NCBI RefSeq assembly: GCF_002741055.1
Contig: NZ_CP016809.1
Coordinates: 5,186,501 to 5,250,500 of the forward strand
Length of the DNA stretch: 64,000 bases
Source of the DNA: Paenibacillus ihbetae
GTDB lineage: Bacteria > Bacillota > Bacilli > Paenibacillales > Paenibacillaceae
Reading direction: 5' to 3'
The number at the start of each line of letters is the position of its first letter. The stretch's first letter is position 1. Below, one piece after another: positions 3,213 through 56,220 of the stretch. The position numbers and the translations under genes were made by a program. The notes beneath the pieces were generated by a model that did not search any database, was not told the DNA's origin, and saw nothing but the letters and a program-made list of their open reading frames with translations.

Positions 3213-3283
3213 GGGCATCACCTCCCTTCCGGGAGAATAGCCAACCGCCCTTTTAGCCGTATATTGTACTCAAAAAATTATAA

Positions 3284-29518: not shown

Positions 29519-29539
29519 ATAGGTAAGGGGATGTACCAT

Positions 29540-30646: not shown

Positions 30647-30648
30647 CT

Positions 30649-32732: not shown

Positions 32733-32764
32733 ATGTTTCAACGAACAAGGAGACAGAGACGAAG

Positions 32765-33757: not shown

Positions 33758-33776
33758 AATCGTAATCATTACGAAT
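33758..33776 (+). promoter_or_regulatory. Zur-type operator 3
   Basis: AATCGTAATCATTACGAAT, the closest match in the window to the Bacillus Zur consensus, placed immediately after the promoter and 55 bp before the GTPase start. Confidence 0.85.
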
Positions 33777-36127: not shown

Positions 36128-36146
36128 AATCGTAATTATTACGCAA
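36128..36146 (+). promoter_or_regulatory. Zur-type operator 5
   Basis: AATCGTAATTATTACGCAA between the L33 paralogue and znuC, 43 bp before the znuC start. Confidence 0.8.
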
Positions 36147-36896: not shown

Positions 36897-37705
36897 TTGG
36901 TGTTATCGCTCCGATCTTAGGCGTATATTTAATGCTTCGACGGCAGGTGCTTATGGCTGACACCCTCTCCCATGTATCGCTGGCAGGGGTGGCATTAGGA
37001 TCGTTCCTGCATCTCAATCCGACGATAAGCGGATTTGTGATCGCCATTATCGGAGCTCTTGTCATTGAACAGCTTCGAAGGGTATACCGAACCTACACCG
37101 AGGTGCCGGTAGCCATTATCATGACGTCCGGACTGGCAGTGGCCGTCGTCCTGATGAGTTTGAATCCGCATTTGAATAAAAGCTTCAGTTCCTACCTTTT
37201 TGGATCCATCGTTGCGGTCAGTGATACCCAACTCGCTTTGATTGCCATCGTAGCCGCATTAGGGCTGGTGTTTTTTGTTGCCTTACGCCGGCCCCTTTAT
37301 AACTTCGCCTTTGATGAGGAGACTGCTGCAATCTCAGGAACTCGGGTTTCGCTTCTTTCGTTTTCATTCGCCGTGTTTACGGGCATGACGGTCGCTGCCT
37401 CCATGCCGATCGTTGGCGTATTGCTAGTATCGGCGCTTATTGTGCTTCCAGCCTCGATCGCGCTCCGGATTGCTCCCGGATTTTTAGCTGCCATGGGCGT
37501 AGCCGTCCTTACAGGATGGGTTGGCGTTTTCTCGGGACTAACCGCCTCCTACTATTTGAATTCGCCGCCCGGTGGCACCATTGCTCTCATTTTGGTAGGG
37601 TTCTTGCTCATAGCTGTATCCATTCAGAAGCTGCTGCAATTGCGAAATCGAAGAGCTGTACAAATAAACAAACCGAAAGTAAGAGGAGTTATTAATCATG
37701 ATTAA
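36842..37705 (+). CDS. znuB: Zinc ABC transporter permease ZnuB
   Basis: A 287-residue ABC-3-family permease with about eight TM helices. Characteristic stretches include FWAGGLIGVIAPILGVYLMLRRQVLMADTLSHVSLAGVALG (N-terminal) and SMPIVGVLLVSALIVLPASIAL (C-terminal coupling and channel region). AAAGGAGG precedes ATG 36842 inside the 3' end of znuC. The 3' end overlaps the ZnuA start by 8 bp. Confidence 0.93.
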   Translation: MAMLGYEFMQRAFWAGGLIGVIAPILGVYLMLRRQVLMADTLSHVSLAGVALGSFLHLNPTISGFVIAIIGALVIEQLRRVYRTYTEVPVAIIMTSGLAVAVVLMSLNPHLNKSFSSYLFGSIVAVSDTQLALIAIVAALGLVFFVALRRPLYNFAFDEETAAISGTRVSLLSFSFAVFTGMTVAASMPIVGVLLVSALIVLPASIALRIAPGFLAAMGVAVLTGWVGVFSGLTASYYLNSPPGGTIALILVGFLLIAVSIQKLLQLRNRRAVQINKPKVRGVINHD

Positions 37706-38942
37706 GAGTTATAAACGAATCCTTGCCGCTTTTTCGTTATCCGCAGCATTGGCTGTCGCGGGCTGCGGCTCTACCAAGCCAAGTGAATCGGGTGGAAGCA
37801 TGAATACAACAAATAGCCAAGTAACAGATACATCATCAGCAGCAAAATTAAAGATTAAAACAAGCTTCTATCCGATGCATGAATTTACACGCCAAGTTGC
37901 CGGCGATTTGGCGGATGTTGAGAATTTGGTACCGGCAGGGGTTGAACCGCATGACTGGGAACCTACGCCGCAGGATATGGCAGGCATTGCTGATGCTGAC
38001 GTGATTGTGTATAACGGTGCAGGTATGGAGAGTTGGATCGATCAGGTACTGGATAGCGTCAAAGATCGTGATCTGAAGGTAATTGAGGCAAGTCAAGGAT
38101 TAGAGATCATGGAAGGCGAAGGGCATTCCCATGCACACGACCATGGTACAGAGGGCGAACACAGCCACGAGGATGAACATGCACACGACCATGGTACAGA
38201 GGGCGAACACAGCCACGAGGATGAACATGCACACGACCATGGCACAGAGGGCGAACACAGCCACGAAGATGAACATGCCCATGACCATGGCGGAGAAGGT
38301 GAACATAGCCACGAAGATGAGCATGCGCATGACCATGGCGCAGAAGGTGAACATAGCCACGAAGATGAACATGCCCATGACCATGGCGCAGAAGGCGGGC
38401 ATCATCATGATCACGGCGGTCTTGATCCCCATGTGTGGCTTTCGCCTGCTCTTGCTATTCAGCAAGTGCGTAATATTGAACAAGGCTTGGCTGAAGCAGA
38501 TCCTGAGCATAAGGATGCCTACAAAGCGAATGCAGATGCCTACGTAAGCAAGCTGGAGGCGTTGGATCAGGAGTTTAAAGAAGGCTTGAAGGATTCCAAG
38601 AGAAAAGACTTCATCACCCAGCATGCTGCGTTCGGTTACTTGGCCAAAGAATACGGTTTAACCCAGGTACCGATAGCAGGCCTGTCCCCTGATCAGGAGC
38701 CATCGGCATCGCAAATGGCCAAGATTATTGAATTTGCCAAGGATAATAACGTAAAAACCATTTTCTTTGAAACGCTTGTCGCTTCAAACGTGGCAGAAAC
38801 GATTGCCGCTGAAATCGGAGCAACCACCGCTGTATTGAATCCGATTGAAGGGTTGACGGAAGAGGATATTTCCAAACAGCTTGATTATATTGCGATCATG
38901 CGCCAAAATCTCCAAGCGCTGCAGGCTGCTTTAAATGAATAG
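37698..38942 (+). CDS. znuA: Zinc-binding lipoprotein ZnuA with expanded His-rich loop
   Basis: A 414-residue cluster A-I binding lipoprotein. Lipobox ALAVAGCGS (Cys about 22). The N-lobe begins KIKTSFYPMHEFTRQVAGD with the first zinc His; further ligands are in EPHDWEPTP (about 77-80), LDPHVWLSP, ITQHAAFGYLAKEYG and the Glu/Asp near FFETLVASNVAETIAAEIG. Between the lobes lies a His/Asp/Glu loop of five near-perfect 16-residue repeats (AHDHGTEGEHSHEDEH type) plus a degenerate sixth, far longer than in typical ZnuA. The loop probably collects zinc for the high-affinity site. The S14 paralogue follows 28 bp later. Confidence 0.95.
   Translation: MIKSYKRILAAFSLSAALAVAGCGSTKPSESGGSMNTTNSQVTDTSSAAKLKIKTSFYPMHEFTRQVAGDLADVENLVPAGVEPHDWEPTPQDMAGIADADVIVYNGAGMESWIDQVLDSVKDRDLKVIEASQGLEIMEGEGHSHAHDHGTEGEHSHEDEHAHDHGTEGEHSHEDEHAHDHGTEGEHSHEDEHAHDHGGEGEHSHEDEHAHDHGAEGEHSHEDEHAHDHGAEGGHHHDHGGLDPHVWLSPALAIQQVRNIEQGLAEADPEHKDAYKANADAYVSKLEALDQEFKEGLKDSKRKDFITQHAAFGYLAKEYGLTQVPIAGLSPDQEPSASQMAKIIEFAKDNNVKTIFFETLVASNVAETIAAEIGATTAVLNPIEGLTEEDISKQLDYIAIMRQNLQALQAALNE
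38131..38410 (+). repeat. 48-bp tandem repeats encoding the His-rich loop
   Basis: Five near-identical 48-bp units and one decayed unit inside znuA. The first three differ at very few positions, which suggests recent expansion. Confidence 0.85.
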
Positions 38943-38970
38943 ATTTTAGAAGAAAGGAGGGTTATTGAAG

Positions 38971-39240
38971 ATGGCAAAGAAATCCAAGGTTATTAAAGAA
39001 CAAAAAAGACAACAGGTCGTGGCCAAATTTGCTGAAAAACGCAGAGAGCTAAAAGAAAAAGGGGACTATGAGGGACTGCAGAAGCTTCCTCGTGACTCCT
39101 CCCCGACACGACTTCATAATCGCTGCGCGGTGACCGGCAGACCCCGAGGCTATATTAGCAAGTTTGGGGTATCGCGAATCGTGTTTCGCGAGCTGGCCCA
39201 CAAAGGACAAATTCCAGGCGTCAAGAAGTCCAGCTGGTAA
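38971..39240 (+). CDS. rpsN: Zinc-independent ribosomal protein S14 paralogue
   Basis: An 89-residue uS14 of the long, zinc-free class ([15 protein letters not shown]...[23 protein letters not shown]...[19 protein letters not shown]). Zinc-type S14 is about 61 residues with CxxC pairs; this form has one Cys and no ribbon. Under zinc limitation it replaces zinc-S14 in new ribosomes. ATG 38971 has AGAAAGGAGG upstream; an in-frame TTG at 38965 is rejected. It is in the znu operon. Confidence 0.95.
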
Positions 39241-39324: not shown

Positions 39325-39846
39325 GTGATCAGGTTGAATCCTGGCATGCAGCTCGATAAATTGATTGATTATCTGGTTGAGCATGGCGTGCGAATTACAA
39401 CGCAGCGTAGATTCCTCGTTGAGCTGATTTTGGGATTAAACCGTCCTTTCTCAGCCATGGAGATATACCAAGCAATGGAGAAAATCTTTCATGGAATGAG
39501 TTACGGGACGGTATACCGCAATCTTGAGCTTTTCAGACAATTGCGGATTGTTGAGATTTTCTTACTGGATAATGAATTGCGGTATCGCATAATCGATCAC
39601 GTTCAGCCGCAGCTTCATTTTATATGCATGGATTGTAAACAAGCCATTCCGATGAGCTTTGATCCGGAGCGGATGGAGTTGCCCAAGCTTCAGCAGTTTC
39701 GATCCCTTAAATACAAAATCGATGTTTTCGGATACTGTACGGATTGTGAAAGTTCATTAGAAACGCATGCTCTTATTAAACCGGATGGAATGACTGAAGC
39801 AGACATCATGGCTGACTGGGAGGACCGATATGGCGGAAAGGGTTAG
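39325..39846 (+). CDS. Fur-family regulator, divergent Zur-like
   Basis: A 173-residue Fur-family repressor. Winged helix with TTQRRFLVELILGLNRPFSAMEIY and MSYGTVYRNLELFRQL (recognition helix), then a dimer domain with two structural-zinc CxxC pairs (CMDCKQ; CTDCES). The regulatory-metal His cluster typical of Fur/Zur is reduced (only QLHFIC and IDHVQPQ remain visible). The start is uncertain: GTG 39325, TTG 39334 or ATG 39346. It lies within the zinc operon and ends overlapping the next gene by 17 bp. The classical Zur is elsewhere in the cluster, so this one may sense something else. Confidence 0.85.
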   Translation: MIRLNPGMQLDKLIDYLVEHGVRITTQRRFLVELILGLNRPFSAMEIYQAMEKIFHGMSYGTVYRNLELFRQLRIVEIFLLDNELRYRIIDHVQPQLHFICMDCKQAIPMSFDPERMELPKLQQFRSLKYKIDVFGYCTDCESSLETHALIKPDGMTEADIMADWEDRYGGKG

Positions 39847-40309
39847 GTTCGTCGATCAAGAAGTAGAACGAGTGATAAGCACGCATAGCAGAGATCAATG
39901 GCACCGCCGAGAGATGGAATTGGGGAAATGGGCGAAGCTGACCAAGCAGCGAAGGCGAGATAAGCAGACAGTCTGGTTAGGTAACGCAGAACTTGACGCA
40001 GAGCTTCTTCCCGCGTATATGTATTTCAAACGTGCAGGGATACAGACAGAGTATTCCTGCGCTGGAGTCAGCCCTTTGGATGAGCCGGAAGATCACTCGC
40101 TCTATGCGTATATCACCTTCATCTCCTCGGAGCAGGCAAAGTCATTTGTCGAGTTTGCGATGGAGCGAATGAGACACCGATTGCTTGTTACTTACGAGCC
40201 ATCCAGGAACCGCTACGATCTGTCCTCCTTTTTTATTGGGCACAATCGGAGATTCTGTACCTTAATGAATCATTATGCCAAAGAATTCTGCATCAATACG
40301 ATAAGATGA
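39830..40309 (+). CDS. Unknown protein co-encoded with the Fur-like regulator
   Basis: A 159-residue soluble, basic protein that I do not recognise. N-terminus helical and charged (DQWHRREMELGKWAKLTKQRRRDKQ). The centre has LLPAYMYFKRAGIQTEYSCAGVSPLDEPEDHSLYAYITF, with a possible Cys/His/Asp site, and a C-terminal segment with CTLMNHYAKEFC. It starts inside the last codons of the regulator gene, so the two are translationally coupled, and ends just before the next Zur-type operator. Confidence 0.7.
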   Translation: MAERVRFVDQEVERVISTHSRDQWHRREMELGKWAKLTKQRRRDKQTVWLGNAELDAELLPAYMYFKRAGIQTEYSCAGVSPLDEPEDHSLYAYITFISSEQAKSFVEFAMERMRHRLLVTYEPSRNRYDLSSFFIGHNRRFCTLMNHYAKEFCINTIR

Positions 40310-40323
40310 TAAGCTCCGCTTAT

Positions 40324-40342
40324 AATCGTAAAAATTACATTC
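40324..40342 (+). promoter_or_regulatory. Zur-type operator 6
   Basis: AATCGTAAAAATTACATTC, overlapping a TATAAT hexamer at 40321-40326. It is the only operator seen before the FecB-FecCD-chelatase gene series. Confidence 0.75.
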
Positions 40343-40405
40343 TACATAGAATGACGTTAGTAGCTGGTAGATCAAAGGATTTAGTCATAGGGGGAGAGCG
40401 AGTCC

Positions 40406-41443
40406 ATGTCTTTGCAATTAAGCAAGAAAAAAACACATCACATCCTGACGATCTGTATTATCGCAGTCTTTGCACTTGTCTCGTCAGCGTGCAGTGGAAA
40501 TTCTGGCAGCCAGGAAACAAAGGCACGTGATCAGGAAGAACTCGGGGCGGCAAAACAAACCGACCTCACTGCGGTCAAGGAGCCTTATATTACATTCCAA
40601 GATGCGACGAATCGTACGATTACGCTTGAACAGCGACCCGAACGAATCGTTGTGCTGACACCTGAATTCCTCGAGCTGCTGTACGCTGTTGGAGGCCATG
40701 CGGTAGGTAGGATGGAAGCCATGGGTGTTTCGATCCCTGAAGAAGCGGAAGAGGTAGCGTCTGTCGGGACCGTGAGTCAGATTAGCTTGGAGCAGGTGGT
40801 AGCTTTAAAACCGGATTTGGTTATCGGACAAGCACGTTTTCATAAAGAGCTTGTGCAGTCGCTGGAGAGCAGTGGCATTGACGTGGCGTTAATGATCATG
40901 TCCAGCTACGAGGATATGAAGTCAAAGGCTGAATGGATGGCGAAGATTGCCGGGACGGGAGAACAGCTGCCGGAAAAGCTGCAAGCATTAGATGACCGGG
41001 TGAATGAAATTCTGCAGCAATTGCCGGGAGAGCATCGTACCTTTATCAATCTAAACGTCACCCCAGGTGGAATTTCCATTCAGAAGGACGGAACAACAGG
41101 ACTGGAGATAGCTAAAATGCTTGGCCTGAGGAACGTGGCAGAAACTCTAGCATCATCGCCTGACAGTCCAACCACGTCCCCTTACAGCATGGAGACGCTT
41201 GCGAAGCAGAATCCGGAATATATCTTTATGATCATCCACGGACAAAAGGCAGTGGGAGATAAGAAAATTAAGGAGGAACTCGAGAGCAATCCTGCCTGGG
41301 CTTCTATTGGGGCTGTCAAAGAACAGCGAGTGATTGTCGTACCATCCGATTTATTCCTCACGAATCCAGGCCTTCACTATGATGAATCGCTGAAGTATTT
41401 AGCCGAGCTGGTGTATCCGGAGATTTTCGGTGATGCCGAATAA
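40406..41443 (+). CDS. FecB-type metal-chelate-binding lipoprotein (system 2)
   Basis: A 345-residue lipoprotein with lipobox ALVSSACSG (Cys about 29) and a class III binding fold from residue 60 (ITFQDATNRTITLEQRPERIVVLTPEFLELLYAVGGHAVGR; VASVGTVSQISLEQVVALKPDLVIG; ATLASS.. lobe 2). GGGGGAGAG ribosome binding site. It heads the operon containing a FecCD permease and the three chelatase subunits. The ligand should be the compound that the chelatase handles. The 3' end overlaps the permease start by 14 bp. Confidence 0.88.
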   Translation: MSLQLSKKKTHHILTICIIAVFALVSSACSGNSGSQETKARDQEELGAAKQTDLTAVKEPYITFQDATNRTITLEQRPERIVVLTPEFLELLYAVGGHAVGRMEAMGVSIPEEAEEVASVGTVSQISLEQVVALKPDLVIGQARFHKELVQSLESSGIDVALMIMSSYEDMKSKAEWMAKIAGTGEQLPEKLQALDDRVNEILQQLPGEHRTFINLNVTPGGISIQKDGTTGLEIAKMLGLRNVAETLASSPDSPTTSPYSMETLAKQNPEYIFMIIHGQKAVGDKKIKEELESNPAWASIGAVKEQRVIVVPSDLFLTNPGLHYDESLKYLAELVYPEIFGDAE

Positions 41444-42422
41444 ATCCATTCGTTCTGTGTCCGTGATCATCATATTCATGGCTTTAGCGATAGCAGCTTC
41501 CATTTTTAGCATGGCTACCGGCGCAGTAATGGTTCCGCTTCAAGATATTGCTGCGACCCTATTACAACATGATCTGCCTGGAGTGAACCGGGACATTATC
41601 TGGAATATCCGACTGCCTCGGACGCTTGTTGCGATGCTTGTTGGAGCGAACCTTGCCGTTTCAGGAGCTCTGCTGCAAGGAATTATGCGAAATCCGCTGG
41701 CAGATCCCCATATAATTGGGGTCTCTAGCGGGGCCGGGCTGTTCGGGATTTTCCTGCTTGTCGTTATGCCGCAGTATGATTTTCTGTTGACGCCTGCCGC
41801 ATTCATCGGAGCGACGCTTGCCGCATTCATCATTTATCTGCTGTCATGGAAAGACGGAATAAATCCGCTCAGAATTGTCCTTGCAGGTGTAGCAGTCTCC
41901 GCCTTTTTGGGATCTGGGATATCTGCAATGCTCACCTTTTACAGCGACAGGGTTCAAGGGGCTTTGCTCTTCATGGTAGGCGGGCTTGCAGCTAAAAGCT
42001 GGCCTGACCTAACAACCATCCTCCCTTACTCTTTGATCGGTCTAGCTCTTTCGATGCTCTTCTCCAAGCAAATGAACATTATGTTGCTCGGAGATGCCAC
42101 GGCTCGGAGCTTAGGGATACGGGTGGAATTTTCCCGACTATGGATAACTGCGGTCGCAACGCTGCTTGCAGCCAGTGCGGTCAGCATTGCAGGCCTTCTG
42201 GGATTCGTCGGGCTGATCATACCGCATGTCGCCCGGCTGCTTGTCGGAGGGGATTACCGGTTTCTGATTCCTTCCGCAGCGCTGTTAGGCGCGGCCGTGC
42301 TGACGATTTGCGACACGCTGGCAAGAATCATGTTCTCCCCGATAGAGCTGCCGGTCGGAATCATCATGGGTGTACTGGGAGCGCCCTTTTTCCTGTACCT
42401 GTTAAGGAGGAGAAAGGCATGA
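41430..42422 (+). CDS. FecCD-family ABC permease (system 2)
   Basis: A 330-residue permease with about ten TM helices. Conserved stretches: IRLPRTLVAMLVGANLAVSGALLQGIMRNPLADPHIIGVSSGAGLF and LGFVGLIIPHVARLLVGGDYRFLIP. It is the only permease of this system, so it should act as a homodimer (BtuC type). The stop overlaps an ATG that begins a truncated ATPase. Confidence 0.92.
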   Translation: MMPNKSIRSVSVIIIFMALAIAASIFSMATGAVMVPLQDIAATLLQHDLPGVNRDIIWNIRLPRTLVAMLVGANLAVSGALLQGIMRNPLADPHIIGVSSGAGLFGIFLLVVMPQYDFLLTPAAFIGATLAAFIIYLLSWKDGINPLRIVLAGVAVSAFLGSGISAMLTFYSDRVQGALLFMVGGLAAKSWPDLTTILPYSLIGLALSMLFSKQMNIMLLGDATARSLGIRVEFSRLWITAVATLLAASAVSIAGLLGFVGLIIPHVARLLVGGDYRFLIPSAALLGAAVLTICDTLARIMFSPIELPVGIIMGVLGAPFFLYLLRRRKA

Positions 42423-42490
42423 ATCAGATCGAGACACGGGATCTTTCGTTAACGTATCCCGACCCGAGTAACGGGATTAATGAAGCATAA
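42419..42490 (+). pseudogene. 23-codon stub of a FecE-type ATPase
   Basis: ATGA overlap with the permease, then a frame MNQIETRDLSLTYPDPSNG...EA that stops at 42488. The residues match the first strand of an ABC ATPase (xIETRDLSLxY). No Walker A or later part follows; the ChlI-like gene begins 14 bp on. The position and coupling are exactly where a FecE gene belongs, so an internal deletion has removed nearly all of it. Confidence 0.65.
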
Positions 42491-42503
42491 GGAGTTGTGA
42501 TGT

Positions 42504-43433
42504 TTGAAAGACGTAGAGCAGCAATATCCATTTACAGCTATTGTAGGTCAATCGAGAATGAAACTGGCGCTCATTCTGAACGTCGTAAATCCGAAGCTTG
42601 GGGGTGTTTTGATCCGAGGCGAGAAAGGAACGGCAAAATCTACAGCTGTACGGGCATTGGCTGGGCTCATGCCTGATCTAAAAGTCATTAACTTGCCTGT
42701 AAGTGCAACGGAAGACCGCGTCGTTGGTGCTCTCGATATCGAGCACGCGATCAAGACAGGAGAGAAGAAATTCGAACCGGGTCTGCTGGCCGCGGCACAT
42801 GGTCATATTCTATATATCGACGAAATTAATCTGTTGGACGATCATATTGTCGATGTATTGCTGGATGCGGCTGCAATGGGAGTCAACACGGTAGAGCGAG
42901 AAGGGATTTCCTATTCTCATCCGTCGCGATTTCTGTTGGTAGGAACGATGAACCCGGAAGAAGGTGACCTGCGGCCGCAGCTACTGGACCGTTTCGCTCT
43001 GTCGGTCGAGATCGGCGGAGAGAAGGATGTTCGCGAGCGCGCGCTTGTCATCCGCAGACGTATGGATTTTGAGTGTGACCCTGCATCATTTTCAGCGCAT
43101 TATAAGGCCGAACAGGAGCGACTTCTACATCAGATCCTACAGGCAAGGGAGCGATTGGGTCAGATCGAGGTTTCGGATGACATGCTGGAGCTGGCTGCAG
43201 CAATCGGAATAGAGTTGGAAGTTGAGGGACATCGATCCGACATTACCCTGATCAAAACAGCGCTCACCCTCGCGGCCTGGCGGGGCCAAGACTCAGTTAG
43301 CCATGAACATATGCAGGAAGCCGCATACCTGGTCTTGCCTCATCGGATGAGACGGCAGCCGTTTGAAGAGTCCGGCGGTATTGAACAGCGATTGTATGCG
43401 CTACTGGGTTCTAAAGCAATGGTACAGGCATGA
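42504..43433 (+). CDS. ChlI/BchI-like AAA+ chelatase subunit
   Basis: A 309-residue AAA+ ATPase of the magnesium/cobalt chelatase I-subunit type. [16 protein letters not shown], Walker [10 protein letters not shown] (about 38-46), Walker [21 protein letters not shown] (about 100), sensor [20 protein letters not shown], and the C-terminal helical domain with [19 protein letters not shown]. It begins at TTG 42504 behind AAGGAG. In class I chelatases this subunit forms a hexameric ring that drives metal insertion by the large subunit. Overlaps the next gene by 4 bp. Confidence 0.92.
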
Positions 43434-45403
43434 TGAAGGTGGGGGAAATGGAGCAGCTGTCAGAATTTCCATTCAGCGGCATCGTTGGACAAGAGATAGC
43501 GAAACGGGCGCTACTGCTATATGCTGTGAATCCTGCAATTGGCGGTGTTCTTATTAATGGTTCTAGAGGATCAGGTAAAAGTCAGCTGCTGCATGCAGCT
43601 TCTTTACTGATCCCTGACCGTCTGAAAATATCCATACCTGTCAACATCACAGCGGATCGGCTTCTCGGCTCATTCGATATGACCGCGGCCATCGACCGCG
43701 GCAGGCTCGTGCGTTCCCCGGGATTGCTGGAAACTGCCGATGGTCAACTGCTGCTGGCCGATCATATGAATCTCGTACCCGAAGCGCTCATCAGAGAGAT
43801 TGTCTATACATGCTCAAGCGGCTGGGTTCATCTGCAGCGGGAGGGGATGTCAAAAATTCGCAGAAGCCGATTTATGCTGCTTGCGGCGATGGATTCGGGT
43901 GATGGCGTTCCTTCGCCTTCACTGCTGGATCATTTTGGATTCTGTGTAACATTGGCGGAATTGGCAGATCCCAAGGATCGAGCCGAGATTATACGCCGAA
44001 GATTACTTTTCGAGCAGGACCCCGATGCTTTCCGTAACCGGTGTCAGCGCCAGGAGGATGCACTCCGGTTGCAAATCCAGGCGGCCGGTCAATTGATTCC
44101 TTACATGGAGGTAACCGCTGAAATGATTCAGCTGGCATCCTCAATCGCAGTTGAAGCGGGGATCGCAAGCGCCCGTGCCGAGCTCTCTCTTGTTGAAGGG
44201 GCTAAAGCGGCAGCCGCCTGGGATGGGCGTACCAAAGTAACCAAGGAGGATATCCGAAAGATCGCCGAGTATGTTTTACCTCATCGAATGCGGGAAGCAG
44301 TCGAGAAAACCCACGCCTCCTGCGGTCCTCCGCTTGAACCGGATGCAGGCGTGCAGACGAATCCGTTAGCCGATCGAACGAATTTTTCCCACGCCCCTGC
44401 ACAGCATTGCGATCATGGGGATGAGAGGACAAATCCGAATGAAACGGGAGGCGCCTTCAATCAAGGCAGGACAGAAATGCCGGGTGAGGAGGAGCCTAAC
44501 GACTCTCAGAGCGTATTCAATGATCGAATGGATGAACAGGTGCTGTTTCCTGACGAGACGTATCGAATCGAGCCTTTGAAGTGGAACATGAAGCGAAAGC
44601 TAGAATATGAGGGCTCGGGAAAACGGTATGAGTCGCGTACGCTCCAGAAGAGAGGCAGATCGGTAGGGGCTGTATACCCGAACAGGAAGCAGCGAACCGA
44701 TGTGGCTTTTGATGCTACGATCCGCGCAGCGGCTCCCTATCAATTGATCCGTACGAAAAAGGACGGTGTCGCGTTTGCCATTGAACTCGATGATTTGCGT
44801 CTGAAGAAAAGAGAGAATCGCGTTGGGTCTACGCTACTGTTTGTGGTTGATGCCAGCGGTTCGATGCTGGCCCGAAAGCGCATGGCGGCGGTCAAAGGAG
44901 GCATCCTTTCTCTGCTCCGGGATTCTTATGTTAAGCGGGACCGAATTGGCATGATCGCGTTCAGAAGGGAAGAGGCTGAGTTGGTGCTTCCGGTTACACG
45001 CAGCATTGATACAGCGTCCAAGCATCTCCGCGATATCCCGACCGGAGGAAGGACGCCTCTGGCAGCCGGAATTCACCTGGCTTATAAGGTGCTTCAAGCG
45101 GAGAAAAGAAGAAATCACGATACGATACCGACGTTGATATTCGTTACGGATGGTCGAGCAAACCAAAGTCCCTCAGGCTTATCGGCCCATTCGGATATTT
45201 GGAATGAATGCCTGGAGGCCGCAAGCCGGATCCGGCTTGCAGGAATCTCTAGTCTAGTCATAGATACGGAGCAGGGCTTTGTCAAATTCGGACGTTCCAA
45301 AGAATTGGCTGAAGCGTTGGGAGCCGAGTATAGAGTGCTCGAGCACTTGAACGAAGCTGGATTTGCTGACGCGGTTCGAATCAATATTGGGTGGGTTAGA
45401 TAG
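43430..45403 (+). CDS. ChlD/BchD-like chelatase subunit (AAA + von Willebrand A)
   Basis: A 657-residue protein. The N-terminal AAA domain (10-270) has an intact-looking Walker A (GSRGSGKSQ) but a degenerate Walker B ([10 protein letters not shown]), as in D subunits. A polar linker (about 285-370, rich in Asn, Glu, His) precedes an integrin-type vWA domain (about 465-650) with [15 protein letters not shown] and TDGRANQ as metal-site motifs. D subunits bridge the I ring and the large catalytic subunit. Translationally coupled to the ChlI-like gene. Confidence 0.92.
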
Positions 45404-45457
45404 ATAACCCGAATTGAGCATGATTCTATCGTCCTTGGATAGGAGGAGGAAAACAGA

Positions 45458-48400
45458 ATGAAGATCACCGTCTTAACGACATCCCATGCGGCCATGAAGG
45501 ATTTAGCGTTCATATATAAGAAGAAGTGGGATGCATCCTTGCGCAGACGCATTTCATTATCTGTATTTAATATAGAAGGAACCTTGTCAGAGGAACAGTG
45601 GAGCTGGGTCGAGACAGCCGTAAAGCAAGCTGATTTTATCATCCACGATCCGCACGGCAGCCCTGCCCGGACCATTTCCCGTATTCATGATCTTTGTATT
45701 GGACTTGAAGCGGAGCAAGTGATAGTTGGAGGCGAGGGGGAGAGGCTTAAGGATATATACAGGCTGGGTTCCTTGCGCTATCACGATCTTGCCGGCGCCG
45801 GCCATCGTGGTCATCCGTCCGCAACCTCAAGAGGACATTCGTCCACATCCTCAATATCAACCGAACAGCAAGATAACCTTAGGCATCACCGGACCTTGGT
45901 CGCTTATTGGAGAAATGCGGGGATTCCTAATTTGCACCATATGCTTGGCTACATTGCCACCTGCTTCGGAAAAGAAACGGATTGGCCGCCGGTCGAGCCA
46001 CCCTTTGCCCTGAAGTCGCTGAGCATCTATGATCCCTCCGACTCGCAGTCATTTGAATCCGTGGAGGCCTATTGGGCGTCCATGCCGGCCCGAGAGGATT
46101 ATCCAACAGTTGCCATACTCTTTATGGGTCACAGCTACCCTCTCCACACTGGAGATATCGTCAGCAGCTTGATGCAGAGCATTCGAGCGTTTGCAAATGT
46201 TCTACCTGTCGTATTCACTTCCTTGACGGAGATTGAACCGAATCGGCTGCGGGCCTTGCTGATGCATGGGGGCGTTCATGGAGGCAAGGTGGAATTGATC
46301 GTAAACTTTGTTCCGTTCCGCCTAGGTGCCGGACCTGCCGGAGGCAAGAGCGATGAAATCCTGGCTTTGCTAAAAGAAGTGGACGCGCCGATGTTCCATC
46401 CGTTCTTCCTGACGCGCCGGGAACGGCAGGAGTGGGAAAGCTCCAGACAAGGCTTGACGCCTTCCGAATTTCTGGTTCAAATGATGCTGCCCGAGCTCGA
46501 CGGGAGCATCGAGACGCATCCGGTTGCCGCATTATCCAGCCTTGGTTATGACGAGGACATGCGGTTTGATGCCAAAGAACTCCGCATGATCGAAGATCGA
46601 GCGCAGCGGGTGGTCGGCCGGGTAAAGCGATACCTGAATCTGCAATCCAAGAAGCCATCCGAGAAGCGAGTCGCCATTATCGGCTATAACTACCCTCCAG
46701 GGGAAGGACATCTGTTCCAGGCCTCCTTTCTGGATACCTTCGAATCAATATCCCGCATCCTCACGGCGATGAAGGAGCATGGTTATGACACTGAGACGTA
46801 CTCTGGATTCGAATTGAAAGAGCGTTTCATACAGGAGGGAATCCTAAATTCCGCAGTGTGGACCAACGACCATTGGCCCGATCATCTTCCGACTTATAAA
46901 AATACATCGTATGAGCAGAGTAATCAGGTCTTGAACAAGCGGAAGAAGGAGCTTGTTCAGCAATGGGGCGAAGCGCCAGGCGACATCATGACGACCGAGG
47001 ACGGCGATTTCAAAATTCCAGGCCTTCGGTTCGGCAACTTGTTCATCGGTATCCAGCCTAGCAGGGGCATACATGAGCATCCGGAGGCTGCTTACCATGA
47101 TAAAGGTCTCCTTCCGCACCATCAGTATTTGGCATTCTACCAATACCTTAGAGACGAGTTCAAGGCTGATGCGATCTTGCATGTGGGAACCCATGGTACG
47201 CTTGAATTTTTGGAAGGCAAAGAAAGCGGCATGTCGGGGGATTGTTTACCTGATGCACTGATTCAGGATATTCCGCATTTTTACGCGTACTATGTCGGCA
47301 ACCCCTCCGAAGCCATGATTGCGAAGCGAAGATCCCATGCTACCTTGATTGGCTACCAATCCCCTCCATTCACGGCATCCGGGTTGTATGGAGAATACGC
47401 CGGCCTTGAAGCATCGCTGCATCAGTATCGGGAAGCGGAACAGCTGAATCCTGCACGACTTCCTGATCTGTGGGAGATGTTGCAGGATCAGGCAGCTGCG
47501 CTTTTTCTTGAAGCTTCAAGCCTGGAATCGCTGGAATCCGAGCTGTACCGAATCCGAAGATCGATGATTCCTGATGGCCTGCATATCTTGGGAGAGGGGT
47601 ATACGCATGAGCAGGCGGCGAAGCATATGAGCATGATTCTTGGCCATGAACGGGGGACGCATGGATCGCTGCAGAGATTATATGCACGTTCGTTGGGCTG
47701 GGATTATGATGAGCTGCTGGAAGTCCAGGATATCGGCAGGCTGCAAACGCTGGATGAGTACGTGGAGAATGCTGTGTCAACCTTTGTTCAAACCCGGGAA
47801 GTTCCTGAACCTCCGCAAGGATCAGCCGATCAGCAATCACATTGGCAGGATATTTGGGAGCTTGGCCTAAACGCTTATCAGTCTACGAAGGCGGATTTGG
47901 AGCTTAAAAATTTGCTTCGGGCGCTGGAGGGTAAATATTTGCCAGTCAGCCTAGCAGGCGACTGCATTCGGAATCCGGAGGTGCTGCCGTCCGGAAACAA
48001 TCTGGTACAGTTCGACCCAAGATCCATACCTAGCCGTGCAGCCGTTGCGAGTGGTTGGAGGATTGCGGAGAACACCTTGAATTTGTATGATGCAGCGCAC
48101 AAGTCATATCCGGAAACAACCGCGCTTGTTATGTGGGGATTGGAAACGTCCCGGACACAGGGGGAGACGCTGGGGCAGATTCTGGCTTATATTGGCGTTA
48201 GAGTTAAGGACCAGGATCACCATAAGCATGTGGAATATGAAATTATTCCGCTATCAGAGCTGAAGAGGCCGCGACTGAATGTCCTGGTCCATATCTGTGG
48301 ATATTTCCGCGACATGTTTCCGGAACAGCTATCAACGCTTCACCGTCTCTTTAAAGAAATTTCTGAGCTGGATGAGCCGTTTAATCAAAATTGGTTCAAA

Positions 48401-49195
48401 AAGCATTCGGAGAGGTTGTATCAACAGTTACGCAGCGCCGGAGCAGAGCATGAAGAGGCTTGGGACTTGGCATGCGCCCGTATATACGGGCCTGCCGAAG
48501 GGGAGTATGGAACCTCGGTCACAAAGCTGATCGAGACCAAGCAGTGGGAAGAAGAAGACCAATTGGGCGCAGCCTTCATGAACAGCCTGAAGCATGTGTA
48601 CAGCTCCGATTACAGGGGCAAGGATATGTACGATTTGTATACGGCGAACCTGGCTGCCGTTGATATCGTTTCACAGATTCGGAGCAACCATGAACATGAA
48701 ATTACCGATCTGGATCATTATTATGAGTTTTTTGGGGGGCTGGCTAAATCGGTAGAGATTGCTAGAGGCGGCAAGGCGGAAATATATATTAGCGATACCA
48801 CGCGGGAGCATATTTTAACCGAAGAAGCAAGAAAGTCCGTCCATCGTGGAGTACGTACCCGTCTGCTCAATCCCAAATGGATAGAGGGTTTGTTAAAGCA
48901 TGATTACCATGGAGCCCAGAAAGTAGCAGACCGATTAGAGAACTTGTTGGGGCTTGCGGCGACAACCAACCAAGTAGACTCCTGGATATTCTCAGCGGTT
49001 CATCAGGAATATGTGGTCAACGAACAACGCAGCAAGCAAATGCGTGACAATAATCGTTGGGCTTACCTTGGTATGCTGGAAACGCTCCTTGAGAGTCATC
49101 AACGGGATTATTGGGACGCCACAGAAAATGAGTTGGGGCTGCTGAGGGAACGTTTTTTGGAGCTTGAAGGGGAGCTTGAAGGTCGTCATGATTAA
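45458..49195 (+). CDS. CobN/BchH-like chelatase large subunit
   Basis: A 1245-residue protein of the CobN/ChlH family, normal length for the catalytic subunit that binds the tetrapyrrole. The strongest signature, HVGTHGTLEF...GKESGMSGDCLPD, lies near residues 573-597. PGEGHLFQASFLDT (about 413) and VGNPSEAMIAKRR (about 615) are further family stretches. A Ser/His-rich insert (GHRGHPSATSRGHSSTSS, about 114-131) is unusual. AGGAGGAGG ribosome binding site. No corrin or chlorophyll biosynthesis genes and no cobalamin riboswitch are nearby. Its operon is preceded by a Zur-type operator, so substrate and metal are open questions. Confidence 0.92.
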   Translation: MKITVLTTSHAAMKDLAFIYKKKWDASLRRRISLSVFNIEGTLSEEQWSWVETAVKQADFIIHDPHGSPARTISRIHDLCIGLEAEQVIVGGEGERLKDIYRLGSLRYHDLAGAGHRGHPSATSRGHSSTSSISTEQQDNLRHHRTLVAYWRNAGIPNLHHMLGYIATCFGKETDWPPVEPPFALKSLSIYDPSDSQSFESVEAYWASMPAREDYPTVAILFMGHSYPLHTGDIVSSLMQSIRAFANVLPVVFTSLTEIEPNRLRALLMHGGVHGGKVELIVNFVPFRLGAGPAGGKSDEILALLKEVDAPMFHPFFLTRRERQEWESSRQGLTPSEFLVQMMLPELDGSIETHPVAALSSLGYDEDMRFDAKELRMIEDRAQRVVGRVKRYLNLQSKKPSEKRVAIIGYNYPPGEGHLFQASFLDTFESISRILTAMKEHGYDTETYSGFELKERFIQEGILNSAVWTNDHWPDHLPTYKNTSYEQSNQVLNKRKKELVQQWGEAPGDIMTTEDGDFKIPGLRFGNLFIGIQPSRGIHEHPEAAYHDKGLLPHHQYLAFYQYLRDEFKADAILHVGTHGTLEFLEGKESGMSGDCLPDALIQDIPHFYAYYVGNPSEAMIAKRRSHATLIGYQSPPFTASGLYGEYAGLEASLHQYREAEQLNPARLPDLWEMLQDQAAALFLEASSLESLESELYRIRRSMIPDGLHILGEGYTHEQAAKHMSMILGHERGTHGSLQRLYARSLGWDYDELLEVQDIGRLQTLDEYVENAVSTFVQTREVPEPPQGSADQQSHWQDIWELGLNAYQSTKADLELKNLLRALEGKYLPVSLAGDCIRNPEVLPSGNNLVQFDPRSIPSRAAVASGWRIAENTLNLYDAAHKSYPETTALVMWGLETSRTQGETLGQILAYIGVRVKDQDHHKHVEYEIIPLSELKRPRLNVLVHICGYFRDMFPEQLSTLHRLFKEISELDEPFNQNWFKKHSERLYQQLRSAGAEHEEAWDLACARIYGPAEGEYGTSVTKLIETKQWEEEDQLGAAFMNSLKHVYSSDYRGKDMYDLYTANLAAVDIVSQIRSNHEHEITDLDHYYEFFGGLAKSVEIARGGKAEIYISDTTREHILTEEARKSVHRGVRTRLLNPKWIEGLLKHDYHGAQKVADRLENLLGLAATTNQVDSWIFSAVHQEYVVNEQRSKQMRDNNRWAYLGMLETLLESHQRDYWDATENELGLLRERFLELEGELEGRHD

Positions 49196-49237: not shown

Positions 49238-49276
49238 ACCTCCAGGAGACCGTAATGTCTGCTTGGAGGTTTTTTT
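49238..49276 (+). terminator. Terminator of the chelatase operon
   Basis: ACCTCCA/TGGAGGT stem and seven Ts, 43 bp after the CobN-like stop. Confidence 0.85.
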
Positions 49277-49342: not shown

Positions 49343-49361
49343 AAATGTAATAATTACGATT
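49343..49361 (+). promoter_or_regulatory. Zur-type operator 7
   Basis: AAATGTAATAATTACGATT, starting 7 bp after the -10 element. Confidence 0.8.
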
Positions 49362-49395
49362 AACTGAGTGAGGCTCGGTTTTTATTACGATCACT

Positions 49396-49414
49396 AATCG
49401 TAATAATTACAATT
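49396..49414 (+). promoter_or_regulatory. Zur-type operator 8
   Basis: AATCGTAATAATTACAATT, 53 bp after operator 7. A further half site (ATTACGAT) lies between them at about 49384-49391. Confidence 0.8.
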
Positions 49415-49445: not shown

Positions 49446-50231
49446 TTGGAGAAGACGGTACATAAATGGTATGAGGAGAGCTTTGGCAAGGATTATTTGC
49501 TCATCTACCGCCACCGGGATCGGCGCCAGGCTGAAGAGGAAGTGTTCAAAATGATGGAGTGGCTGAAGCTCCCGACTCATAGTGATATCCTCGATTTATG
49601 CTGCGGTATGGGGAGACATGCATTAACGCTTGCACATACAGGATATCGTGTAACGGGCGTTGATCTTTCTTCCGAGCTGTTACAGGAGGCTAGGGCCTCA
49701 GACCCTCATGGACTTGTTAACTGGGTTGAAGGCGATATGCGCGCCTTGCCAGAGGATACGATGTTTAAGGAACGCTTTGATGCCGTTATCAATTTGTTTA
49801 CCTCATTTGGTTATTTTGAAGAGGACCATGAACAGTTAACCGTATTACGGGAAATCCACAAGGCTTTGAGGCCCGGCGGGCGATTCATTATCGATTATAT
49901 GAATGCCGAGTACACGACAAATCACCTCATCCCTTTCTCCAAGCGGATCGTTGATGGAACGATCATTTCGGAAACCCGCCGAATTTTTAGCGGATTTGTC
50001 ATGAAGGAGATCGAGGTCCGGGTTCAAGGATCAAACAATCTTACCCGCCGATATTCAGAACGCGTCAAGCTATACAGCCCTGAGAAATTGGCAGATATGC
50101 TGACATCAGCCGGTCTTACATTGGATACCATTTATGGGAACTATGAAGGACAAAGCTATGATCGGAAGCAGTCGCCACGTATGATTATGGTTGGCCATCG
50201 GGAGGAAAGGGGCACGAACCGTAACGCTTGA
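49446..50231 (+). CDS. Class I SAM-dependent methyltransferase (zinc cluster, first)
   Basis: A 261-residue Rossmann-fold methyltransferase. Motif I DILDLCCGMGRHALTLA (about 47-63), motif II VTGVDLSSELL, an acidic EGDMRALP motif, and a C-terminal beta-rich extension (SETRRIFSGFVMKEIEVRV). TTG 49446 with AGGGAGGGAG upstream. The methyl acceptor is unknown. Two Zur-type operators before the gene imply induction in zinc limitation, so modification of a zinc ligand or of its carrier is plausible but unproven. Monocistronic before the next operator. Confidence 0.88.
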   Translation: MEKTVHKWYEESFGKDYLLIYRHRDRRQAEEEVFKMMEWLKLPTHSDILDLCCGMGRHALTLAHTGYRVTGVDLSSELLQEARASDPHGLVNWVEGDMRALPEDTMFKERFDAVINLFTSFGYFEEDHEQLTVLREIHKALRPGGRFIIDYMNAEYTTNHLIPFSKRIVDGTIISETRRIFSGFVMKEIEVRVQGSNNLTRRYSERVKLYSPEKLADMLTSAGLTLDTIYGNYEGQSYDRKQSPRMIMVGHREERGTNRNA

Positions 50232-50261: not shown

Positions 50262-50280
50262 AGTCGTAATTATTACGAAT
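50262..50280 (+). promoter_or_regulatory. Zur-type operator 9
   Basis: AGTCGTAATTATTACGAAT, 24 bp before the start of the third FecB-like gene. Confidence 0.8.
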
Positions 50281-50303: not shown

Positions 50304-51482
50304 TTGTTTATTCAAAAACAATACTTATCGAATACGGTCATAAGACTCATACTTGCACTGATTCTCGCATTGATGATAGCAGGATGCTCGGCAACCAAGC
50401 AGGATGAAGCAAACGTAACCAAATTGGATATTCAACAGTCGAAATCACCAGTCGAAGCGGAACAAGCAAAAAGCTGGACATTTACCGACACAAGCGGCAA
50501 AGAAATTACGCTTGATATCCCCGTTCAAAAGGCTGTGGTCATAAATCGAAATACAGCTGAAGCGATAAAACTTCTGGGAGCTGCTGAAAGCATAGCAGCA
50601 ACCGGTGACAATACGATTAAGCATAATTCATATCTTGGCTTTGACAATTTGCCGGACGTTGGGGAAACTGAGCAGGTAAATCTGGAGACGATCCTCGGCT
50701 TGAAGCCTGAAGTGGTCTTCACCTATACGAATCGGCCTGATCACAAACTGGAGGAAAAGTTAGAGCCGGCCGGTATCAAGGTCGTCCGGATGAATAATTA
50801 TTTGCCTGAGCAGATGGATACGGAATGGGAACTGCTGGGCAAGCTGTTCGGCAAAGAAGAAAGGGCTGCAACGTTTCTGGAATGGAAGCATGAAATCGAG
50901 CGCATTCCGGCTGAACGAATACAATCTATTGATCCTAACGAGAAAAAGAGTGTACTGGCGCTCTCAGCAGGTTTTCTCAATTCCAATGGCGGTTATCGCG
51001 TTTTTCCAAGTCAGTCGCTAGGTGGCAGAACTGGTGTCGGCGAAGGTTACGCCACGATTTTGGCAGGCGGAAGAGATGCAGCCGATTTGCAATGGGATCC
51101 GGCCGAGGCATCCACAACGATCATGGTTGACGAAGAATATGTGCTCAAGCGAAATCCGGATGTTGTTACACTGCATGGTACTTGGCTAGGCGGGTATGAA
51201 ACGATGGAGACCAAAGCGATTGATGAAGCCTTTGCGAATATGTTAAACATTTCGTCCCTGAACAAGCTGAATGCAGGCAAAGACAGGGAAATTTATTTTT
51301 TTTATACGAATTTTATCGGGTCAGACAAACGATATATCGGTGTTTTGCAGCTTGCCAAGTGGCTGTATCCAGACCGATTTCAGGATGTAGACCCCGATGC
51401 ATATGCGAAGGAGTATTTTGAAGAATGGCTGGGTGTGCCTTATCAAGGGATTTGGTACTACTCGTTTAAGGAGAAGGAATGA
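50304..51482 (+). CDS. FecB-type metal-chelate-binding lipoprotein (system 3)
   Basis: A 392-residue lipoprotein, TTG start behind AGAGAGGGG. Lipobox LMIAGCSA (Cys about 28). The binding fold runs from about 60 (WTFTDTSGKEITLDIPVQKAVVINRNTAEAIKLLG; LPDVGETEQVNLETILGLKPEVVFTY). Lobe 2 contains an unusually Gly-rich stretch (NSNGGYRVFPSQSLGGRTGVGEGYATILAGG). It divides from systems 1 and 2 enough to suggest a different chelate. Followed by permease with ATGA overlap. Confidence 0.88.
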   Translation: MFIQKQYLSNTVIRLILALILALMIAGCSATKQDEANVTKLDIQQSKSPVEAEQAKSWTFTDTSGKEITLDIPVQKAVVINRNTAEAIKLLGAAESIAATGDNTIKHNSYLGFDNLPDVGETEQVNLETILGLKPEVVFTYTNRPDHKLEEKLEPAGIKVVRMNNYLPEQMDTEWELLGKLFGKEERAATFLEWKHEIERIPAERIQSIDPNEKKSVLALSAGFLNSNGGYRVFPSQSLGGRTGVGEGYATILAGGRDAADLQWDPAEASTTIMVDEEYVLKRNPDVVTLHGTWLGGYETMETKAIDEAFANMLNISSLNKLNAGKDREIYFFYTNFIGSDKRYIGVLQLAKWLYPDRFQDVDPDAYAKEYFEEWLGVPYQGIWYYSFKEKE

Positions 51483-52573
51483 TGGAAAAATCTCTCCATC
51501 ACCATGATCTGAGGTCCTCGAAGCTCCGAATGGAATCGATATACCGAGGCAGATCATTACGTAAGCTCTTGCTGCTCTTATTGCTCCTGGTCTTATTGAT
51601 CATTACAGCAGGAGCTGCGATCACGAAGGGCTCGGCAGCTGTCCCTCTGCAAGAGCTCTGGGCAATGATGACCGGCACCAGCGCTGACGAAATGAATGCG
51701 TATATCGTACGTGAGGTTCGGCTCCCCCGAATCCTGATGTCTGTAGTAGCCGGCATATCGCTAGCGGCAGCGGGTACGATCATGCAGGCATTGCTGCGTA
51801 ATCCACTTGCCGATCCGTTTACTTTGGGGGTTTCAAGCGGAGCAGCCTTCGGAGCCGCACTTGCGATCGTGGCGGGCACTAGCGTATTCGGAATGAACCT
51901 CGTTCACAGTGGGCCATGGCTGATTGCTTTTAACGCTTTTCTTTTCGGTTGTTTGGCTGTAGGGGTCGTATATGGCATTGCCCGCATGAAGAACAGCTCG
52001 ACTACGGTCTTGCTGCTGGCGGGTGTAGCTATTGGTCAATTATTCTCGGCCGGCGTATCGGCTCTGAAGTATTTTTCCAACAACGATGCCCTTAAAGATC
52101 TGGTTATCTGGTTAATGGGGGGGTTCTGGGGCTCCGGTTGGCATGTGCTGGAGATTCTCTTGCCGCTGTCCGCTTTAGCTCTTTTGGTCTTGATGAAGTA
52201 TGCATGGGATATGAATGCACTCATCTCGGGGGAGGAGGTGGCACTCACGCTCGGCGTGAAAGTGAAGCATATACGATGGGTTTGCTTGGTGACGGTCACT
52301 CTTCTGGCATCAACAACCATAGCTTTCACAGGCATTATCGGTTTTATCGGGCTTGTCGCCCCGCATATAAGCCGAATGATCATCGGTACCGACTACAGAT
52401 ATTTATTACCGTGCTCGTGCTTGATCGGGGCCTTGCTTTTGCTTGCATCGGATACGGTGGCCCGGCTGCTTCTGATGCCTGTTGAAATCCCCGTTGGAAT
52501 CGTAACATCCTTCTTCGGCGCACCATTCTTCATCTATTTACTGGTCAAGAAGCGCCGGGAGTATTGGACCTAG
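51479..52573 (+). CDS. FecCD-family ABC permease (system 3)
   Basis: A 364-residue permease with a longer cytosolic N-terminus containing HHHD, then about ten TM helices. Signature stretches VREVRLPRILMSVVAGISLAAAGTIMQALLRNPLADPFTLGVSSGAAFG and GIIGFIGLVAPHISRMIIG. Single permease, so probably a homodimer. Overlaps the preceding stop; the ATPase gene starts 12 bp after its end. Confidence 0.92.
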   Translation: MMEKSLHHHDLRSSKLRMESIYRGRSLRKLLLLLLLLVLLIITAGAAITKGSAAVPLQELWAMMTGTSADEMNAYIVREVRLPRILMSVVAGISLAAAGTIMQALLRNPLADPFTLGVSSGAAFGAALAIVAGTSVFGMNLVHSGPWLIAFNAFLFGCLAVGVVYGIARMKNSSTTVLLLAGVAIGQLFSAGVSALKYFSNNDALKDLVIWLMGGFWGSGWHVLEILLPLSALALLVLMKYAWDMNALISGEEVALTLGVKVKHIRWVCLVTVTLLASTTIAFTGIIGFIGLVAPHISRMIIGTDYRYLLPCSCLIGALLLLASDTVARLLLMPVEIPVGIVTSFFGAPFFIYLLVKKRREYWT

Positions 52574-52584
52574 GAGGGGAAATC

Positions 52585-53373: not shown

Positions 53374-53388
53374 AGGGGGAAACAAGAT

Positions 53389-56191: not shown

Positions 56192-56220
56192 TTGAAAGAA
56201 ACTTTATATCCATATATAAT
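56192..56220 (+). promoter_or_regulatory. Promoter of the ferredoxin-like gene
   Basis: TTGAAA, 17-bp spacer, TATAAT; the -10 runs into operator 11. Confidence 0.8.

Follow-up and report, generated by a model that had tools for sequence, protein, structure and literature searches.

The chelatase cassette and its zinc operators

The DNA analysed here (hereafter the window) is a stretch of 64,000 nt from Paenibacillus ihbetae (NZ_CP016809.1, 5,186,501-5,250,500, forward strand), and our subject is a cassette at 40406-49195 in which genes for a class I chelatase follow those for an importer. Families were assigned with Pfam and NCBIfam models on the open reading frame (ORF) list of the window, and the order FecB-FecCD-ChlI-ChlD-CobN forms a single operon:

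40326-40340, weak Zur box before fecB, TCGTAAAAATTACAT, three mismatches to TCGTAATNATTACGA
40406-41443, plus strand, FecB-type substrate-binding lipoprotein (PF01497)
41430-42422, plus strand, FecCD permease (PF01032)
42419-42490, plus strand, 23-codon relic of the cassette FecE ATPase gene, between FecCD and ChlI
42504-43433, plus strand, ChlI-like AAA+ ATPase (AAA/ChlI; Walker A, Walker B LYIDE)
43430-45403, plus strand, ChlD-like subunit (Walker A motif and VWA motif DASGSM)
45458-49195, plus strand, CobN/ChlH/HmuS-type class I chelatase large subunit (PF02514)
49239-49276, plus strand, terminator-like hairpin and T run 3′ of cobN, read by eye and absent from the terminator-scan list

The three-subunit make-up of a class I chelatase is thus complete, with a large subunit, an AAA+ ChlI and a VWA-bearing ChlD. 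An initial annotation, made from the sequence alone, had placed this trio and its importer at the same positions, and the ORFs, the 4-bp overlap of chlI and chlD, the 54-bp gap from chlD to cobN and the family matches all agree with it. CobN matches PF02514 with 1047 bits, while ChlI and ChlD reach 440 and 538 bits against TIGR02442 (cut-off 779). CobN carries the motifs DPHG (aa 64-67), HVGTHG (aa 575) and DLDHYYEFFGG (aa 1084), and no leader-like sequence was seen by eye at its N-terminus. None of the operon proteins matches a tetrapyrrole-making family in Pfam or NCBIfam, and no chlorophyll gene is among the families found in the scanned parts of the window.

In regard to regulation, the scans used the Zur consensus TCGTAATNATTACGA, which we take to be the relevant one, as we do for the Fur and gamma-Zur consensus strings. 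One source describes the Zur box as a 20-nt palindrome without printing its letters in the text (PMC4324032). The palindrome that the initial annotation had reported before fecB is present but weak, and stronger boxes were found elsewhere in the window and, close to the corresponding position, in most other relatives. The closest related locus, L117, has an identical site upstream of fecB, which 3% of shuffled upstream regions equal or better. With up to three mismatches the consensus matches 16 times in the window, where 2.63 matches are expected and the largest of 100 shuffles gave 8. Sites with no or one mismatch number six in the 6,593,819-base genome, all inside the window, against one for the backward control pattern. 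At up to three mismatches the genome holds 365 matches versus 217 for the control, and therefore single weak Zur sites mean little.

All six of these strong boxes fall within a zinc island of 27 kb, at about 29.4 to 56.7 kb of the window. Its first part comprises a FecBCDE set, a ZigA-like COG0523 GTPase (548 bits against NF038288, cut-off 600), an AAA ATPase, ribosomal protein L33, ZnuCBA, S14 and a Fur-family gene. Beyond the cassette lie a methyltransferase gene and a second importer set (FecBCE-methyltransferase), as well as one more Fur-family gene, one more COG0523 gene and a small ferredoxin-like protein. The features that bear on the cassette are:

32765-33580, plus strand, FecE from the FecBCDE set upstream (29531-33580, Zur-boxed); identity to the L118 cassette FecE, 46.8%
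33760-33774, perfect Zur box before the ZigA-like COG0523 gene 33831-35018 (motif scan)
36130-36144, Zur box with one mismatch before znuC-znuB-znuA-rpsN
36189-38942, plus strand, znuC, znuB and znuA (family models)
38965-39240, plus strand, ribosomal protein S14 (NF006477; below the cut-off of the zinc-type model)
39325-39846, plus strand, Fur-family regulator (family models)
49345-49412, pair of Zur boxes upstream of 49446-50231, a methyltransferase gene (motif scan)
50264-50278, perfect Zur box before the second FecB-FecC-FecE-methyltransferase set, 50304-54240 (motif scan)
52564-53373, FecE from this second Zur-boxed set; identity to the L118 cassette FecE, 44.7%
54400-54855, plus strand, second Fur-family regulator (window annotation)

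For the gaps from znuA to fecB, the terminator-scan list contains no terminator-like site on the plus strand, and transcription of the cassette may also start from the znuC promoter with its box at 36130.

The relic between FecCD and ChlI, which the initial annotation had not mentioned, reads MNQIETRDLSLTYPDPSNGINEA and resembles the start of an ATP-binding cassette (ABC) ATPase gene (compare MTRLETRDLSLKYQDK in L118). A FecE match stands at the corresponding place in 23 of the 24 relatives described below, the exception being L117, and on this comparison the cassette has lost its own ATPase gene. Since L117 keeps a remnant that decayed in a different way, the loss probably occurred in a common ancestor of the two. 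The FecE proteins at 32765-33580 and 52564-53373 are possible sources of a replacement.

Several other features of the window were recorded. The stretch 39830-40309 encodes a 159-residue protein without a Pfam match that adjoins the Fur-family gene; its relatives in L120 and L136 sit with COG0523 genes and Zur boxes. The AAA ATPase (35053-35868) is a relative of IteA, an anti-phage ATPase (256 bits against a cut-off of 510), and its orthologues in L126 and L131 are likewise near a Zur box. The ferredoxin-like protein (56292-56663) has a Zur box at 56220, and homologues with about 50% identity are encoded ahead of CobN in L139 and L141, two loci with a riboswitch. The 50304-54240 set is 53-68% identical to a set that lies 3′ of a cobalamin riboswitch in L139, divergent from a CobN of another kind, and by this likeness it is another corrinoid-linked importer under Zur.

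Related cassettes under three kinds of operators

CobN-like genes are patchy in their distribution, given that matches were found in few genomes of the genus (7 of 100, one being a 26-residue scrap), of the order (30 of 392, with scraps in G034 and G144 and a broken copy in G330) and of the class (9 of 398, five of them of a kind 30-39% identical). Twenty-six loci were of the Zur type. Two of these, L121 and L134, are contig ends without FecCD and with no operator seen, and they stand outside the 24-locus box count and inside the 25-row clade discussed below. The order FecB-FecCD-FecE-ChlI-ChlD-CobN is kept in 22 of the 24 loci with FecCD on the contig, which bears out the proposed coupling of chelatase and importer; in L135 CobN precedes ChlI, and L117 has no FecE there. 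A Zur box with up to three mismatches was found between -350 and +75 of fecB in 23 of the 24 loci, and with up to two mismatches in 20, while a Fur box with up to two mismatches was found upstream of fecB in none. In L120, the one exception, fecB is preceded by a Fur-family gene that itself has a perfect Zur box in front. Two of the loci (L180, L181) belong to other families of the class. Together with the excess of boxes in the window and the six strong genomic sites, these boxes of relatives make a link of the cassette to Zur near certain at the sequence level, in agreement with the zinc-starvation control proposed at the outset. Stretches of 12-18 kb that include the cassette are about 98-99% identical in five genomes (G030, G358, G325, G344, G110) from three genera and two families, and this identity across genera and families points to recent horizontal transfer between species. 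The near-identical loci are L128, L129, L130, L132 and L133.

The initial annotation had also seen no cobalamin riboswitch, and this held for the window, where the sole match of the Rfam scan is to the BsrG RNA family (3029-3268, minus strand, 76 bits). Likewise, no cobalamin riboswitch was found in the seven of the 24 loci that were scanned whole (L118, L119, L120, L123, L020, L180, L181). In 22 Zur-type genomes, with the best 67 or 68 of 246-675 candidates per genome scored, every riboswitch among the matches listed lay on another contig or more than 200 kb from the Zur-type cobN, where a contig break could hide nearness; one further riboswitch scan scored the best 150 of 447 candidates.

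Outside the Zur-type loci the operators differ. A scan of named genomes gave 80 loci, and 18 clostridial loci have FecB, FecCD and CobN together (L017, counted here, is labelled a Dehalococcoidales metagenome-assembled genome). A Zur box with up to three mismatches was found in none of the 18, and 14 have an upstream cobalamin riboswitch in the same orientation: L010, L012, L013, L019, L023, L024, L025, L026, L048, L061, L072, L074, L081 and L082. The match in L048 barely passes the cut-off (31.6 against 31.5 bits), and for L026 and L074 another ABC set stands between riboswitch and cassette. No upstream riboswitch was found in L009, L014, L017 and L022, with little upstream sequence covered for L009 and L017. 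In Bacillaceae, Fur boxes precede two of three loci, differing at 1 of 21 positions in L018 and 3 of 21 in L008 (0 of 300 shuffles each), and none was found in L079. Across these groups, this gene order does not always come with a Zur box, and in Clostridia it mostly comes with a riboswitch, which the initial annotation had not foreseen. Because the clostridial loci are mostly riboswitch-linked and two of the three Bacillaceae loci carry Fur boxes, the cassette is, as far as its sequence relatives tell, not zinc-specific by origin.

The neighbours of the clostridial cassettes are informative as well. Genes for NEAT-domain proteins and sortase adjoin the cassette in two loci (L022, L024), and a cbiK-like gene lies beside it in L023, L026 and L081 (265, 199 and 264 bits); L026 further has cbiD and cbiF, and L081 cobA-hemD and cbiL. 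A conserved lipoprotein of about 180 residues stands beside seven of these cassettes (L019 at 16651, L022 at 16699, L023 at 13655, L017 at 11006, L024 at 13711, L081 at 13698, L026 at 16736), with no Pfam match in the three scanned. In the Zur-type genomes, NEAT proteins were considered as Zur partners and rejected, the matches lying behind Fur boxes in G399 and G248 and with neither box in G136. A flavoprotein and a 550-residue FeoB-like GTPase with Gate domains were observed near Zur boxes in L123 (14232-17038), L136 (17629-19901) and L181 (15184-17972), called from Pfam for L123 and for the GTPase of L136, and from the first residues for L181; the pair is possibly a zinc-linked transporter.

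Identity of the CobN protein

The P. ihbetae genome has no corrin pathway; a genome profile search gave four TP-methylase genes and no CbiC match. In the order, 156 of 392 genomes gave a CbiC match (155 of them above the cut-off) and 30 a CobN match, and the two rarely occur together: CbiC is present above the cut-off in 3 of the 30 CobN-bearing genomes (G248, G279, G283) versus 152 of the 362 others (Fisher p = 0.0003), and in 3 of 25 when only genomes whose Zur-type CobN is intact are counted (p = 0.003), the p values being only a guide because the genomes are related. Against the cobalamin CobN model TIGR02257 the window protein scores 635 bits, under the cut-off of 822 and far from the 1265 bits of the true CobN of L139; against the BchH/ChlH model TIGR02025 it scores 808 bits, close below the cut-off of 829.

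A CobN of the other kind, with a cobalamin riboswitch nearby, occurs in G142, G150 and G184, and the two scanned reached 1265 and 1259 bits (cut-off 822); G142 holds both kinds. Related to this, we observed that in L139, L141 and L142 the other kind stands with ChlI/ChlD and an importer near a cobalamin riboswitch, in L142 also with an adenosyltransferase. The genomes of these three loci gave no CbiC match, a cobaltochelatase being present in cells seemingly unable to make corrin de novo.

For the phylogeny, CobN frames shorter than 1050 residues were excluded, which left an alignment of 108 rows, and a quick tree was built from 104 of them after L014_3721, L021_2, L050_2 and L077_3 had been dropped. 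The 25 Zur-type rows form one clade with support 100, next to which come three Bacillaceae rows and then the clostridial rows. Seven cobalamin CobN rows form a separate clade, also with support 100. HmuS (as two chain pieces) and L147 are long branches whose joining is unsure. The active site agrees with this grouping, since the window CobN has GTHG and a His...Glu pair, as in HmuS, and lacks both the GKHG and the Asp...Gln found in all seven cobalamin rows. The catalytic motifs of tetrapyrrole chelatases are kept in all 25 rows of the Zur clade. The possibility, raised with the initial annotation, that this CobN belongs among the cobalamin enzymes of a genome with a full cob operon was checked, and the protein was found in a separate clade and the genome without a corrin pathway. 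Pathway content, CbiC counts, active-site residues and clade all agree, and on these comparisons the window CobN is not the cobalamin enzyme, a reading that is excluded for this genome. An ordinary cobaltochelatase of cobalamin synthesis, for which homology (PF02514; the TIGR02257 score) and the three CbiC-bearing genomes can be cited, is further contradicted by Zur boxes in place of a riboswitch and counts as refuted.

Zinc binds His in preference to Met, and candidate ligand positions were compared between the groups. In the CobN head, His (H66 of DPHG) is present in all 25 Zur-clade rows and Met in 21 of 22 clostridial rows, so that HG at aa 66-67 stands where most clostridial rows have MG; by fold order the site may correspond to Met-79-Gly-80 of HmuS. 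As a zinc mark H66 was weakened, because L008, with its Fur box, and three of the seven cobalamin rows also have His there, and it is no clean mark. At the alignment place of the HmuS heme ligand His-254 (HGR) the window has FVPFRLG, without such a His, and two PDB sequence searches did not align the HmuS N-terminus. In FecB, His-278 is present in all 21 Zur-type rows, in none of 13 clostridial rows and in one of two Bacillaceae rows. FecB H146 was likewise weakened as a zinc-specific ligand, with His there in FecB of Vibrio alginolyticus, HtsA, YfiY and 2 of 13 clostridial rows. A predicted structure of the head-neck region superposes on HmuS (9d26) over 308 residues at 3.7 Å and on CobN (7c6o) over 310 residues at 4.9 Å, versus 16.3 Å for ChlH.

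A possible role in removing metal from tetrapyrroles

We propose, with a probability of roughly 55%, that the cassette imports a metallo-tetrapyrrole and spends ATP to remove its metal, which would be zinc here and cobalt or iron elsewhere. When zinc is low, release of Zur would switch the cassette on, and the FecB lipoprotein would capture a metallo-tetrapyrrole outside the cell, with zinc coproporphyrin III or other zinc porphyrins released by microbes as candidates. The permease would import the ring, powered by an ATPase of one of the neighbouring sets. CobN could then hold the ring with His-579 (HVGTHG) on one side and His-1087 and Glu-1090 (DLDHYYEFFGG) on the other, while ChlI-ChlD would spend ATP on bending it so that zinc leaves, the reverse of cobalt or magnesium insertion. 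The COG0523 GTPases of the island might receive the freed zinc. A cheese-rind bacterium produces zinc coproporphyrin III, which according to the authors of that work may help it to acquire zinc or to avoid zinc toxicity (PMC6104308). Our literature search found no description of zinc porphyrins as a bacterial zinc source and, in the parts of the sources it covered, no account of a FecB-FecCD-ChlI-ChlD-CobN cassette under Zur in Bacillota.

We infer both the stripping direction and the tetrapyrrole substrate from comparisons of sequence, fold and gene neighbourhood. Stripping is favoured over loading by the HmuS-like catalytic pair, the HmuS head-neck fold, the two clostridial loci with NEAT genes and the three with cbiK-like genes, since beside a cbiK-like gene a second cobalt inserter would be idle. 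The NEAT and sortase genes argue for a tetrapyrrole as substrate, and a metal supplier fits better than a cofactor maker because Zur, Fur and the riboswitch all answer a lack of metal or cofactor. A wider version, in which this would be a general ATP-driven ring-stripping module across Bacillota, with its operator swapped between Zur, Fur and riboswitch and its choice of metal perhaps changed through ligand swaps, is tentative, and we would put the odds against it.

Several points weigh against the stripping of zinc. We know of no demonstration of ATP-driven metal removal by a class I chelatase. The window's own site before fecB is weak, and, since five of the Zur-type loci are nearly identical to one another, the 24 do not amount to 24 independent cases. 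His...Glu occurs in 92 of the 108 aligned rows (HmuS not counted), including archaeal ones of unknown role, and being so common it does not prove metal removal. By Z score the fold match fails to separate HmuS (17.3) from ChlH (18.1). Of 23 Zur-type genomes only three have NEAT domains, in no case with a Zur box. The cbiK-like scores lie below the curated cut-off of 400, though CbiK is the best match by far, and the riboswitch locus L019 also carries a Fur-like site with two mismatches. Finally, HmuS works without ChlI/ChlD and needs NADH (PMC12583661), and the single riboswitch operon of comparable make-up that has been studied, operon-2 of Dehalobacter restrictus, was read as serving corrinoid transport and salvage (PMC4285132).

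Alternatively, the cassette could scavenge cobalt or corrinoids under Zur, a cobalt tetrapyrrole being imported as in Clostridia and cobalt replacing zinc in the starved cell, which we regard as rather unlikely. Removing cobalt from a finished corrin is chemically hard, many neighbours in the island are zinc genes, and the Zur clade has His for Met in the CobN head and His in FecB, although His is also found in some other rows. On the other hand, clostridial orthologues lie downstream of riboswitches, some beside cbiK-like or cbi genes, and the second Zur-boxed FecBCE-methyltransferase set resembles the riboswitch-linked set of L139. In addition, a znuA mutant of Pseudomonas aeruginosa is reported to gain cobalt, and cobalt to ease zinc starvation there (PMC4542158, PMC13083405).

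A chelatase that works forward, producing a zinc tetrapyrrole as a store, as cargo for a carrier or as a compound that catches zinc, is improbable. Known class I enzymes with ATP motors do insert metals (PMC7689651), and just after the cassette comes a methyltransferase gene that has two Zur boxes. However, a tight zinc chelate made in a zinc-starved cytoplasm would run counter to need, and the operon partner is an importer, with no match to a tetrapyrrole-making family among the operon proteins. Just as improbable is an imported chelate that is no tetrapyrrole, such as an opine-type zincophore, with the chelatase fold turned to another ligand; the catalytic motifs kept in 25 Zur-clade rows and the NEAT genes beside two clostridial cassettes speak against it.

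Five known systems come closest to the cassette. HmuS of Bacteroidota is a heme de-chelatase that takes iron out of heme (PMC12583661; PDB 9d26). It shares with the window CobN the CobN/ChlH superfamily, the GTHG and LDHxxEFxGG motifs and the head-neck fold. It differs in being membrane-bound, in using NADH, in needing no ChlI/ChlD, and in its Met-rich insertion and its heme ligands Met-79 and His-254 (PMC12583661), whereas the window CobN has no leader seen, keeps ChlI/ChlD, carries H66 in the head motif and has no aligned counterpart of His-254. The aerobic cobaltochelatase CobNST is alike in superfamily and in its three subunits, and unlike in active-site residues, clade, regulation and pathway context. 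Magnesium chelatase (ChlH/BchH-ChlI-ChlD) is alike in its three subunits and in the TIGR02025 score, which remains under the cut-off, and the BchH row L151 has GMHG and VDHYFD instead. Operon-2 of D. restrictus similarly unites a FepBCD-type importer, CobN and magnesium-chelatase subunits, but it has a cobalamin riboswitch and two CbiZ genes and is 346-fold up in corrinoid starvation (PMC4285132), whereas the window has Zur boxes and no CbiZ; this likeness is one of operon make-up.

In P. aeruginosa, the Zur-regulated genes PA1922-PA1925 include one for a CobN-like protein to which no role has been assigned (PMC4542158, PMC8531726, PMC13083405, PMC11761036). The likeness lies in a CobN-like protein within a Zur-regulated uptake operon and in an adjoining methyltransferase gene, PA1921 (PMC4542158, PMC11761036). 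The differences are a TonB receptor, an ExbD-like partner and no ChlI/ChlD named in the published descriptions compared here. A Pseudoalteromonas plasmid locus (L147, 5758-10558) recalls PA1922-1925: it encodes a CobN-like protein with a leader-like N-terminus and an Asp...Gln catalytic pair, beside ExbB/ExbD-like small membrane proteins (by eye) and TonB-receptor-like genes. No convincing gamma-proteobacterial Zur site, by the motif assumed above, was found at this cobN. The P. aeruginosa protein has been unexplained since at least 2015. In the present locus one set of genes under a zinc operator encodes the importer as well as the large subunit and its motors, and relatives linked to a riboswitch or to Fur can be compared with it. 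If zinc is indeed stripped from tetrapyrroles, zinc porphyrins would be a nutrient and class I chelatases would work in both directions; a few active-site residues could then serve to check 'cobaltochelatase' labels that were assigned by homology.

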